Source: Aurantimonas endophytica
GTDB lineage: Bacteria > Pseudomonadota > Alphaproteobacteria > Rhizobiales > Rhizobiaceae
Length of the DNA: 64,000 nt
Assembly (NCBI RefSeq): GCF_014196845.1
Contig: NZ_JACIEM010000005.1
Coordinates: 434,001 to 498,000, forward strand
Direction of reading: 5' to 3'
Both the position numbers and the translations under genes were made by a program. Below the pieces are notes generated by a model. It was given only the letters and a program-made list of their open reading frames with translations. It was not told the DNA's origin and searched no databases. Position 1 is the first letter of the stretch. Every line of letters starts with the position of its first letter. This document shows positions 45,428-52,827 of this stretch, piece by piece.

Positions 45428-47848
<2,421 letters not shown>

Positions 47849-47972: not shown

Positions 47973-49202
<1,230 letters not shown>

Positions 49203-49291: not shown

Positions 49292-49306
49292 TTAACCCTT
49301 GGTTAA
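49292..49306. promoter_or_regulatory. CtrA-type box, TTAA-N7-TTAA
   Basis: TTAA CCCTTGG TTAA in the 248-nt gap before the ParA-like gene matches the full consensus of the cell-cycle regulator CtrA. It is also an imperfect dyad (GTTAAC on both sides). It lies about 150 nt upstream of the ATG. Confidence 0.55.
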
Positions 49307-49450
49307 CCATAAGGTCGGAGACTTCGACGGATCGGACGATGGACGGGATTCTGCGCCGCATCGGCAGCAGGCCTCTCGGCACCGCCTGATCGGGCGGCAG
49401 AACCGCCCCGCAGAATTCACGCGGCGCGATGCCCTGCGACGAGGCCGATC

Positions 49451-50152
49451 ATGCTCTCTGTCATCTCCGTCGGATCCCTGAAGGCCTCCGGCAGCGCGAC
49501 GGTCGCGCTGACCCTCGCGAGCGTTGCTGCCGCGGCCGAAATCCCGGTGATGCTGGTCGATGCCGCGGCGCATGGGGAACTCGCCGGCTGGGCCGCCAAG
49601 GGCGCGCATCCGCCGCTTCTCCAGTATGAACACGCCGCCGACATCGCTGCCATCGAACGAGCGCTGCGACAGGCGTGGCGGCGCGGCGCGCTCGCCATCA
49701 TCGACGCCGGCGAGGAAGAGCTGACAGTCCGTGCCGCAGCGGGCCTTGCCGAGCGGGCGCTGATCCCCGTGCGCTTCTCGCCGCTCTCGGCCTATTCGGC
49801 CCTCGTCACCGATCAATTGCTGGCGGCCGATGCGCGGCTCGCCCCTCGCGGCGACCGCTGCTTCGTCGCCAGCGCCATCACTGCGATCGGCAACGGTGTT
49901 GCCCGGAGCATCGAGGCGATCATCGGCACCAGCGATACGCTGCGCCTGCCTGTGGGACTGTCGCAATGCGCGGCCCACCTGGCCCCCTTCGTTCACGGGG
50001 GCACAATCTTCACGCTGGATGACACGGTCGTTGCCGGACTCGATCACGCGCGGGCGGAGGCGGCGAGCTTTGCGCACGCCGTCGGCATCCTTGGTGCGGC
50101 AGTCGAATCAAAGCCGGCACCCAGTTTCGACGCGCAGCGCCGGGCCGCCTGA
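49451..50152 (+). CDS. ParA/VirC1-like protein with degenerate P-loop
   Basis: A 233-residue protein with the fold pattern of ParA-family ATPases: VISVGSLKASGSATVALTLA at the Walker A position, PVMLVDAAAHG at the Asp strand, ALAIIDAGEEE at Walker B, and the C-terminal FVHGGTIFTLDDTVVAGLDH that is typical for this group. The Walker A sequence lacks the GKS/T lysine, so ATP hydrolysis is unlikely. Start ATG 49451. Function not known; a CtrA-type box upstream suggests cell-cycle control. Confidence 0.7.
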   Translation: MLSVISVGSLKASGSATVALTLASVAAAAEIPVMLVDAAAHGELAGWAAKGAHPPLLQYEHAADIAAIERALRQAWRRGALAIIDAGEEELTVRAAAGLAERALIPVRFSPLSAYSALVTDQLLAADARLAPRGDRCFVASAITAIGNGVARSIEAIIGTSDTLRLPVGLSQCAAHLAPFVHGGTIFTLDDTVVAGLDHARAEAASFAHAVGILGAAVESKPAPSFDAQRRAA

Positions 50153-50203: not shown

Positions 50204-52177
50204 TTACTGGAAGCTCGGCGGCTGCGACAGGTCGATCGGGGCGCTCTGGCCGGAGGATGCCGGCGGCGCTGGTGACGCCGGTGCCGGCTGCTGAGCCGCT
50301 GGCGGCGCCGCAGGAGCTTGGGCTCCGCTACCCAGAGCATTGTTGAAGTCGAGTGGCGGCAGGCCCATCGATGGGGCAGGGGCGGCTGCCGGCGCGGGCG
50401 CTTGCTGCGTCGCGCCGCCAGGCGCAGGTGCCGCTGCCCCATCAGCCGGCGGTGCGCCGAGGGGCGGCATGCCGAGCGGCGGCAGACCCAGCGGGTTGTT
50501 CTGCTGCCCGCCGTTGCCGACGCCCGATGCGCCGCCCAGCGGCGGCAGCCCGCCTTCGCCGCCGAAATTCGGGATCTGCAGCTGGATCGTCGAGGGATCC
50601 TGCACAGGCGCCTCTGATTTGTAGCGCATGACCATCTGCGGGAAGAGGATCGTCAGGCCCACCATCACCAGCTGGATACACACGAACGGCACGGCACCGC
50701 GGTAGATCTGCCCGGTCGTCACCGGCTCCATCCGCTTGCCGGTGACGCGATCGAGATACGGCACGCGCGCCGCCACCGAGCGCAGGTAGAACAGCGCGAA
50801 GCCGAAGGGCGGATGCATGAACGAGGTCTGCATGTTCAGGCCGAGCAGCACCCCGAAGAAGATCAGGTCGATGCCCAGGCTGTCCGCCGCCGGTGCCAGG
50901 AGCGGCACGATGATGAAGGCGAGCTCGAAGAAGTCGAGGAAGAATGCCAGGAAGAAGACCAGGATGTTGACGACGATGAGGAAGCCGGTCTGGCCGCCCG
51001 GAACGGCGGTCAGCAGTTCCTCGACCCAGATATGGCCGTTGACGCCGTAGAAGGTCAGGGAGAACACCCGGGCGCCGATCAGGATGAACAGCACGAAGGC
51101 CGACAGCTTGGTCGTCGACTCCATCGCCTGGGTCATCAGCGAGAGGTTCAGCTTGCGCTTGCCGAAGGCGAGGACGAGCGCGCCGACGGCGCCCATCGCG
51201 CCACCTTCCGTCGGCGTGGCGATGCCGAGGAAGATCGTGCCGAGGACGAGGAAGATCAGCGCCAGCGGCGGGATCAGGACGATGATCACCTGCTGCGTCA
51301 GGTAGGACAGCAGCGGCAGCTTGAACGCCTTGTTGAGGACGGCGACGAAATACACCGCGAGGATGGCGATCGTGGCGCCCCAGATCGCCGCACCCTGCTC
51401 GACCTGACCCTCCAGGAAGGTCGTTGCCAGATAGGCGAGGACCACGGCTGCCGCCGCGGCGAAGATCAGCGAAGTGACGCCGTGCCCGAGGGTCCGCGCT
51501 TCCTTCGGCAAGGCGGGCGCGGCATTCGGATAGATCATCGTCATGGCGAAGATGTAGAGGACGTAGAGCCCGGTCAGGACCAGCGCCGGGACGAGGGCGC
51601 CCGAATACATGTCGCCGACCGACCGGCCGAGCTGGTCGGCGAGGACGATCAGCACCAGCGAGGGCGGGATGATCTGGGCAAGCGTTCCGGACGCGACGAT
51701 GACGCCGCTGGCCAGCCGGCGGTCGTAGCCGTAGCGCAGCATGATCGGCAGCGAGATCAGGCCCATCGCGATGACCGAGGCGGCGACGACGCCGGTGGTG
51801 GCGGCCAGCAGCGCACCGACGAAGATCACCGCATAGGCGAGGCCGCCGCGCAGCGGGCCGAACAGCTGGCCGATCGTGTCGAGCAGATCCTCGGCCATGC
51901 CGGAACGTTCGAGGATCAGTCCCATGAAGGTGAAGAACGGGATCGCCAGCAGCGTGTCGTTCGACATGACGCCGCCGAAGAAGCGATCGGGCAGGGCGCC
52001 GAGCAGCGGCCAGAACAGGTTGATGTCGTCGGACAGCGGCGCCAGTTCGACGCCGATGATGAAGAACAGGAGGCCGTTGGCGGCCAGAGAGAACGCCACC
52101 GGATAGCCGAGCAGCAGGAAGACGATCAGCGAGCCGAACATGATCGGCGCGAGATTGTGGGCGACGAACTCGATCAT
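50204..52177 (-). CDS. TRAP transporter large permease DctM with Pro-rich C-terminal tail
   Basis: A 657-residue protein. Residues 1-520 hold about 14 membrane helices with the DctM pattern (PFFTFMGLILERSGMAEDLLD, IIPPSLVLIVLADQLG, GIATPTEGGAMGAVGALVLA). The last about 130 residues are an unusual cytoplasmic or periplasmic Pro/Ala-rich tail containing GLPPLG four times. It overlaps the DctQ gene by 4 nt. It is the transport partner for a binding protein such as the TakP-like pair, which is coded on the opposite strand. Confidence 0.92.
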   Translation of the reverse strand: MIEFVAHNLAPIMFGSLIVFLLLGYPVAFSLAANGLLFFIIGVELAPLSDDINLFWPLLGALPDRFFGGVMSNDTLLAIPFFTFMGLILERSGMAEDLLDTIGQLFGPLRGGLAYAVIFVGALLAATTGVVAASVIAMGLISLPIMLRYGYDRRLASGVIVASGTLAQIIPPSLVLIVLADQLGRSVGDMYSGALVPALVLTGLYVLYIFAMTMIYPNAAPALPKEARTLGHGVTSLIFAAAAAVVLAYLATTFLEGQVEQGAAIWGATIAILAVYFVAVLNKAFKLPLLSYLTQQVIIVLIPPLALIFLVLGTIFLGIATPTEGGAMGAVGALVLAFGKRKLNLSLMTQAMESTTKLSAFVLFILIGARVFSLTFYGVNGHIWVEELLTAVPGGQTGFLIVVNILVFFLAFFLDFFELAFIIVPLLAPAADSLGIDLIFFGVLLGLNMQTSFMHPPFGFALFYLRSVAARVPYLDRVTGKRMEPVTTGQIYRGAVPFVCIQLVMVGLTILFPQMVMRYKSEAPVQDPSTIQLQIPNFGGEGGLPPLGGASGVGNGGQQNNPLGLPPLGMPPLGAPPADGAAAPAPGGATQQAPAPAAAPAPSMGLPPLDFNNALGSGAQAPAAPPAAQQPAPASPAPPASSGQSAPIDLSQPPSFQ

Positions 52178-52827
52178 CGGGTCACTCCCGGGCCACCGTC
52201 TCGGGGCTGTTTCGATGGCGGCGGATTGACCGGCGGTTCTGCGCCACCCTCCGGATGGTCGGGTGCCAGGGCGACAAGCTCGGAGACCTCCGCATGCGCC
52301 GATGCCATCGGGGTCGTGTCCTCGACACCGAAGAACATCACGCCGATGCGCTTGATCAGCTCGGATATGGCCTGCAGGAACAACAGCGCGAAGCCGGCGA
52401 GCAGCAGCGCCTTGGCGGGCCAGAGGATCAGGCCGCCGGCATTCGGCGAGGTCTCGCCACGCATGAAGGACTGCAGCACGTAGGGGTAGAGCAGCCAGAG
52501 CATCAGCATCGTGAACGGCAGCAGCATGAAGATGTGGCCGAGCAGGTCGATCCAGTCACGCGTGCGTTTGGAGACGACGTTCGAGACGATGTCGACGCGG
52601 ATGTGCTCGTTCTTCAAGAGCGTCCAGGCCGCCGCCAACATGAAGATCGCCCCGAACAGATACCACTGCAGCTCCAGCCAGGCGTTGGAGGAGATGTCGA
52701 AGGCCTTGCGGATGACCGCGTTGCCGGCGCTGACCAGCACCACGACGAGCACCAGCCAAGACACGCCGCGACCGATGAAGGTCGTCACGCGGTCGATGCC
52801 GCGGGAAAAAGCCATGAGCGCCGACAT
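52174..52827 (-). CDS. TRAP transporter small permease DctQ
   Basis: A 217-residue protein with four membrane helices and the DctQ signature WLELQWYLFGAIFMLAAAWT followed by KNEHIRVDI. A polar C-terminal tail of about 45 residues follows. It starts at ATG 52827 (or 52815). Its stop overlaps the DctM start, so DctQ and DctM are made together. The family anchors the binding protein to the large subunit. Confidence 0.92.
   Translation of the reverse strand: MSALMAFSRGIDRVTTFIGRGVSWLVLVVVLVSAGNAVIRKAFDISSNAWLELQWYLFGAIFMLAAAWTLLKNEHIRVDIVSNVVSKRTRDWIDLLGHIFMLLPFTMLMLWLLYPYVLQSFMRGETSPNAGGLILWPAKALLLAGFALLFLQAISELIKRIGVMFFGVEDTTPMASAHAEVSELVALAPDHPEGGAEPPVNPPPSKQPRDGGPGVTR

Follow-up and report, generated by a model that had tools for sequence, protein, structure and literature searches.

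A predicted ParA-fold protein with a degenerate nucleotide site, encoded behind a CtrA-type box in Aurantimonas endophytica

Introduction

In the current understanding, positioning systems of the ParA type work as switches driven by ATP. Catalysis by ParA ATPases uses the second Asp of the switch I motif D-x-D-P, and the Arg of the Thr-Arg motif touches adenine. The closest described relative of the protein reported here is ParF, the small ParA of plasmid TP228 (PDB 4e03, 4dzz, 5u1g), whose Walker A motif in full is KGGxGKT and whose gene has a ParG partner gene; VirC1 also has an intact nucleotide site. A gene is assigned to the regulon of CtrA by a full TTAA-N7-TTAA(C) site in its promoter region, and the pilus genes of Caulobacter are tied to this regulator.

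Other members of the superfamily have departed from the standard site. Table 1 of PMC9178275 lists MipZ with the Walker A motif KGGAGKS and BcsQ with RGGVGTT, in which the catalytic Lys is replaced. According to a passage of PMC10482377, TadZ, which is without both lysines, keeps ATPase activity, and the signature Lys of MinD meets the ATP of the other protomer; passages of PMC13170226 state that the TadZ motif can bind ATP for dimerization and that TadZ/CpaE have a receiver-like N-terminal domain. With regard to CtrA targets, an extract of PMC4433202 states that CtrA of S. meliloti acts directly on minCD, which it represses, and that in Caulobacter it directly targets ftsQA. Among the matches listed from open-licence PMC titles and abstract openings, none described a CtrA-controlled ParA without a P-loop Lys or any relative of ParA from the Aurantimonadaceae.

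The gene considered here lies in a 64,000-nucleotide window (the whole stretch of A. endophytica DNA that was analyzed) of a 5.04 Mb assembly, and its product belongs to a clade of proteins that is delimited below.

Results

The features of the locus are given in Table 1. The open reading frame begins at an ATG that is the earliest possible start codon in its frame. A preliminary description of this DNA had reported a ParA-like protein with the string SLKASGSAT in the Walker A region, and both the reading frame and the string are present; the span that it gave, 49292-50152, ends where the gene ends, but it opens with the upstream box, and the frame itself starts at 49451. No gene on the same strand directly follows, and by rough gene calls the neighboring genes are common to groups of genera and not to the whole family (a dctM cluster is nearby in 7 of 41 loci), so that the gene looks like a single-gene unit. 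Membership in a TRAP operon was rejected, as the downstream dctM-like gene is convergent and the neighborhood is not kept across the family. In five loci no partner (ParB-like) gene was seen directly beside the clade gene (rough script calls, names given by eye), nor were any tad/cpa pilus genes recognized by eye near it. The products of the dctP-like gene and of the adjacent gene at 46607-47848, also on the + strand, are both TRAP solute-binding proteins by eye and visibly alike. An intrinsic terminator appeared likely by eye in the interval that separates the box from the dctP-like gene, and none was found by scan.

Table 1. Features at the locus, in window coordinates.
Feature	Position	Strand	Basis or remark
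TRAP solute-binding protein-like (dctP-like) gene	48054-49202	+	upstream neighbor; named by eye
CtrA-type box TTAACC-N4-GTTAACCAT	49292-49310	+	159 bp upstream of ATG
Presumed promoter and 5' UTR	49311-49450	+	conserved among three close genomes
Predicted ParA-fold protein with degenerate nucleotide site, 233 aa	49451-50152	+	ORF, translation, model, alignment
Degenerate Walker A region, residues 11-17, KASGSAT	49481-49501	+	alignment
Degenerate switch I (Walker A'), residues 37-40, DAAA (relatives mostly DADP)	49559-49570	+	alignment
Altered P-box, residues 107-113, VRFSPLS	49769-49789	+	alignment
dctM-like gene	50204-52177	-	downstream, convergent; named by eye
dctQ-like gene	52174-52827	-	downstream, convergent; named by eye

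Structure prediction, which the preliminary description had proposed as a check, returned a ParA fold for the window protein (AF2 model, pLDDT 85, pTM 0.85, with residues 216-233 below 50). The top Foldseek match was TP228 ParA/ParF (E 7.2e-9), and in VIA-align the model matched ParF with a Z of 25.1 (rmsd 2.3 over 202 residues, 18% identity), MipZ with 20.2 and MinD with 20.1. By its predicted fold the protein clearly belongs to the ParA/MinD superfamily. ParF was also the best PDB match by sequence profile (E 2.9e-6). Searched against Pfam with a limit of E 10, the window protein had no match; the NCBIfam model NF041546 (ParA_partition) matched it at E 2.5e-11, yet with 43.5 bits against a cut-off of 180; the protein is below every curated cut-off of both collections. 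Among 41 members of the clade, the VirC1 model (PF07015) matched seven at E <= 0.01 (best 1.5e-4) and the MipZ model (PF09140) eight (best 3.1e-4), both weakly. The ParA/VirC1 pattern noticed earlier is thus upheld as a ParA fold, whereas its profile support is weak and the VirC1 Pfam match is absent for the window protein.

We compared the nucleotide site in an alignment of 42 clade members, many of which are close kin and therefore not 42 independent cases, with that of 38 relatives outside the clade (43 profile matches minus the clade member L019 and the same-protein repeats in overlapping loci); the partial L083 was excluded from the counts of 42. The P-loop Lys occurs in none of the 42 (Ser in 25, Thr in 13, Cys in 2, Ala in 2) as against 37 of the 38 relatives, the single exception carrying Arg there, and one P-loop residue is deleted in every clade member. 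The second Asp of switch I (0/42 vs. 38/38) and the Arg of the Thr-Arg motif (0/42 vs. 31/38) are gone from the clade, and the P-box Asp found in all 38 relatives is Ser in all 42. The signature Lys is retained in 39 of 42, with Arg in the other three, which are paralogs, and Asp37 and Asp85 are each invariant (42/42). Fixed new residues, Arg108, Ser113, Glu155, and Pro179 (each 42/42), replace those that were lost. The site is degenerate, several of its parts having been lost together, beyond the Lys alone. In the window protein, KASGSAT keeps the signature Lys while the P-loop is one residue shorter and the catalytic Lys is Ser. All five of the best outside relatives at class level have GK[ST]. 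The deviant Walker A motif of ParA ATPases, KGGxxK[ST], does not describe the clade (second Lys, 0/42). The lack of a P-loop Lys, first noticed in the window protein, therefore holds clade-wide, and a sequencing error or single-strain quirk is ruled out, the loss being common to the clade.

Two side observations concern other proteins. A separate ParA-type gene in another genome of the family, L022 (G027:C10:49115-49510), encodes KRGSGRTT, an independent change of the P-loop Lys to Arg, and NCBIfam includes a KGGVGR-motif AAA model (NF047398). The genome's CpaE-like protein (L129, G000:C2:187002-187493; named by eye) reads KGGVGSST and is by this motif the cell's second ParA/MinD-type protein without a P-loop Lys. 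Descent of the clade from CpaE, which has the same Lys to Ser change, is unsupported: against the clade profile this protein reaches 0.0 bits (E 0.15), and it keeps Gly-Gly and Asp-x-Asp. Its place in the tree that includes it means little because the branches there are very long.

The clade protein is likely a pseudo-ATPase. The preliminary description had suggested as much, and the degenerate ParA-fold site (no P-loop Lys in 42 members, loss of several parts) agrees with it; the protein is not, however, the first member of the superfamily without this Lys, TadZ and BcsQ being others. The P-loop Lys alone decides little, because TadZ, BcsQ, and the CpaE-like protein are all without it. A rebuilt pocket might still bind ATP, as dimer glue and perhaps with slow hydrolysis, an Arg or main-chain cradle replacing the Lys, and the protein would then be an unorthodox ATPase resembling TadZ. 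We consider this possible but rather unlikely. It has precedents in the passages on TadZ (PMC10482377, PMC13170226), in the BcsQ entry of the table cited above (RGGVGTT, PMC9178275), and in the KGGVGSST of the CpaE-like protein, and Asp37, Asp85, and Arg108 are present in all 42 members. Against it, several parts of the site were lost at once, beyond the Lys, while the CpaE-like protein retains Gly-Gly and Asp-x-Asp. Moreover, the clade has no other conserved Lys as a stand-in of the kind reported for TadZ (the window protein has three lysines, 11, 50, and 221, of which only Lys11 is conserved), and the candidate stand-in Arg40, found in 38 of 42 members, is Ala in the window protein.

The TTAA-N7-TTAA box that had been reported upstream of the gene is present at 49292-49306 (TTAACCCTTGGTTAA) and is the sole one in the window (none in 100 shuffles). 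A census of the 300 bp upstream of 42 genes (those of the window, L002, and L043-L082) found a full box at 16 of them, 62 to 201 bp from the ATG (at -62 in L048, the ortholog from the environmental strain Aurantimonas manganoxydans SI85-9A1). The remaining 559,192 bases of these loci contain no such box, and the reversed pattern, taken as a control, has two occurrences in all. In the 16 boxes, which are related to each other (those of L048 and L050 are near-identical), the second half-site is followed by C (15/16), C (16/16), A (13), and T (15) and preceded by G in 15 of 16, so that positions left free by the search pattern are almost invariant as well; the spacer is variable. As aligned, the box is a conserved footprint, with fixed half-sites and spacers that vary. 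The 26 genes without a full box include five of the six Jiella and 15 of the 19 Aureimonas loci, and with so many genes box-less the clade as a whole cannot be invariably under CtrA. The presence or absence of the box requires at least eight changes on the tree.

Between the box and the ATG, positions 49307-49450 are well conserved in the window, L002, and L043 apart from single-base gaps, and because of these gaps the stretch is probably non-coding; a structured 5' UTR is possible. Conservation is lower immediately upstream of the box, except for a GC-rich stem-like stretch. A scan for sigma-70-like promoters found none and was uninformative, as shuffles gave almost none too. A different pattern, [CT]AAG-N7-CAAG, lies upstream of the gene in 14 of 26 box-less loci (L044-L047, L051-L053, L056, L058, L059, L064, L068, L073, and L077; 114-214 bp upstream) and in none of 15 boxed ones (41 loci, L002 being left out), and there are two occurrences elsewhere in these loci (557,430 bases, one strand). 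A slightly longer form of it is unenriched in genome G027, with 27 sites vs. 86 for the reversed control.

The genome encodes CtrA, identified by 86% identity to a Caulobacter sequence and by 427.4 bits with NCBIfam NF045991 (cut-off 350); the full site at 49292-49306, of the kind that defines the CtrA regulon, lies in a genome that has ctrA. Genome-wide, TTAA-N7-TTAA occurs 25 times and the reversed pattern five times. The extended pattern (Table 1) is matched exactly at a single site of the genome, the window box itself, and with up to two mismatches it occurs at 11 distinct places (12 rows, the window box appearing on both strands) against none for the control, a result that is partly circular because the consensus was drawn from the clade's own boxes. 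We inspected 22 other box places (10 with the extended pattern and 15 with the core, three being shared; seven of the 25 core places were left out) and searched nine neighboring proteins, together with CtrA, against NCBIfam. At five of the 22 the neighboring gene is of a type that CtrA regulons are known to include: minC (148.8 bits against a cut-off of 95.25; minD is next to it, and the core box is 44 bp upstream), fliF (208.7 bits, cut-off 129.75), ddl (400.4 bits, cut-off 243; with an FtsQ-like protein that matches weakly, at 32.4 bits vs. a cut-off of 366), a flagellin (286.6 bits, under the cut-off of 311; box only at two mismatches), and mraZ (185.2 bits, cut-off 162; the box is 276 bp upstream). 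At a sixth box place the neighboring protein, which is motA-like, had no NCBIfam match. The remaining 17 adjoin other or unnamed genes, with no classic target, and one of these is without any called gene.

CtrA likely controls the gene in this genome, be it by activation or by repression. The cell-cycle timing that had been suggested from the box is likely here in view of the conserved box, the presence of ctrA, and the genes that share the box, but does not extend to the clade as a whole, with 26 of 42 genes box-less. It is unlikely, in our judgment, that the box is real but that CtrA mainly represses the gene or another OmpR-type regulator reads the box, in which case the timing would be reversed or unrelated to the CtrA-on phase. 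Such a reading could appeal to the repression of minCD by CtrA in S. meliloti (from the extract of PMC4433202) and to the wide range of box-ATG distances (62 to 201 bp in 16 genes), whereas the position of the box, just ahead of a 5' stretch that is well conserved, is what one would expect of an activator site, if weakly so. Production in the CtrA-active phase seems to us most likely because the gene's own upstream region has the genome's sole exact extended box.

The nearest named relative is from Aurantimonas aggregata (81%). In 60 genomes, the window's included, 10 matches in nine genomes have 46-100% identity and no internal stop codon, and the other 17 matches have 20-32%. A scan of named genomes, which queried two peptide patterns of the clade and is thereby biased to close kin, returned 41 loci, 40 of them in Aurantimonadaceae (Aureimonas 19, Aurantimonas 9, Jiella 6, Fulvimarina 4, Mangrovicella 1, and Antarcticirhabdus 1). 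The outside locus, L083, is partial, being cut by a contig end, comes from a MAG titled Rhizobiaceae, and is also without the P-loop Lys. Six genomes carry two clade copies; five second copies (L078, L079, and L080-L082) have 39-45% identity to the window protein and no full box (0/5), and L080-L082 have Arg in place of the signature Lys as well.

The clade is sharply bounded, because its profile (A2, built from 41 rows) gave 16 matches in 13 of the 151 genomes of the GTDB family at 295-381 bits and at most 97.2 bits for the rest, and exceeded 100 bits only at the window's own locus in two wider sets, one of 297 genomes from the order (E <= 1e-12) and one of 385 from the class (E <= 1e-20), both being even draws from larger groups. 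A quick tree without the P-loop columns placed the clade on one side of a branch (SH-aLRT 100), and a second tree, with five ParA/MinD-type proteins added from the genome of the window and without the long-branch L011_can7, L017, L018, and L091, supported it at 99. Three same-genus genomes (G001, G004, and G006; 98-99% complete) yielded no clade member, either in the genome or beside the dctM homolog, and since they are near-complete the gene seems dispensable there.

The clade is under purifying selection, with dN/dS (NG86) of 0.07-0.36 in 10 pairs of five orthologs (dS up to 0.99) and 27 invariant columns over 41 sequences; the dN/dS contradicts a pseudogene. That the gene is a decaying relic of a plasmid-type ParA is scarcely credible: the further loss, in the window's subclade of three, of the family-conserved Arg149 and Arg173 (39/42 each) and Arg40 (38/42) and the three same-genus genomes without a clade member would suit such decay, but the dN/dS in all 10 pairs contradicts it for the family, and the 10 clade matches without an internal stop, the 27 invariant columns, and the conserved box also stand against it.

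Discussion

Our proposal, in which we place about as much belief as doubt, is that the protein would be a nucleotide-blind ParA-fold adaptor or damper on a CtrA schedule, acting on an active ParA/MinD-type ATPase or on its partner. In the simplest account the nucleotide site would have been lost once, before the Aurantimonadaceae radiated, and the ParA fold then retained for what may be a protein-binding job. If CtrA binds the box and sets the timing accordingly, the protein would be made when CtrA is active, along with flagellar and division genes, and the ATP switch of a normal ParA would be replaced by control over when the protein is made. It would then bind an active ParA/MinD-type ATPase or that ATPase's partner. 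Possible partners encoded by the genome are MinD and, by eye, a ParA, a small ParA, and CpaE; the genome's PF09140 (MipZ) matches (best 41.6 bits) fall at MinD and other relatives. The least certain step is a mixed dimer formed via the signature Lys, which may be possible because this Lys is kept (39/42) and, in ordinary dimers, reportedly contacts the ATP bound by the opposite subunit. A more specific version, in which the CtrA-timed, nucleotide-blind subunit would insert its signature Lys into ParA/MinD and the resulting one-sided sandwich dimer would lock or damp the ATPase during division, we regard as quite improbable.

A fold that was kept across a bacterial family while several parts of its nucleotide site were discarded provides a natural test of the ParA fold without the switch. 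If CtrA times the gene, the locus would also connect ParA proteins to the cell cycle of alphaproteobacteria in a new way.

Proteins of the ParA superfamily without the P-loop Lys are already known, and it is the clade-wide loss of several site parts behind a CtrA box that is absent from the titles and abstract openings listed. ParF resembles the window protein in whole fold and size, but its site is intact in the alignment from position 12 on, where that of the window protein is degenerate, and the two have 18% identity; the ParF gene has a partner gene, whereas none was seen alongside the clade gene in five loci. VirC1 and MipZ have Pfam models that match 7 and 8 of 41 members weakly and the window protein not at all, and MipZ, although similar in structure (Z 20.2), is listed with an intact site, KGGAGKS. 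BcsQ, a cellulose synthesis protein, is listed with Gly-Gly kept and the signature Lys not, unlike the clade. The CpaE-like protein of the same genome likewise differs from the clade, with its 0.0 bits (E 0.15) and retained Gly-Gly and Asp-x-Asp. TadZ, as described in the passage of PMC10482377, is like the clade a superfamily member without the P-loop Lys, but the receiver-like N-terminal domain ascribed to TadZ/CpaE (PMC13170226) contrasts with the bare 233-aa domain found here, in which the first ParA-fold strand begins at residue 4.
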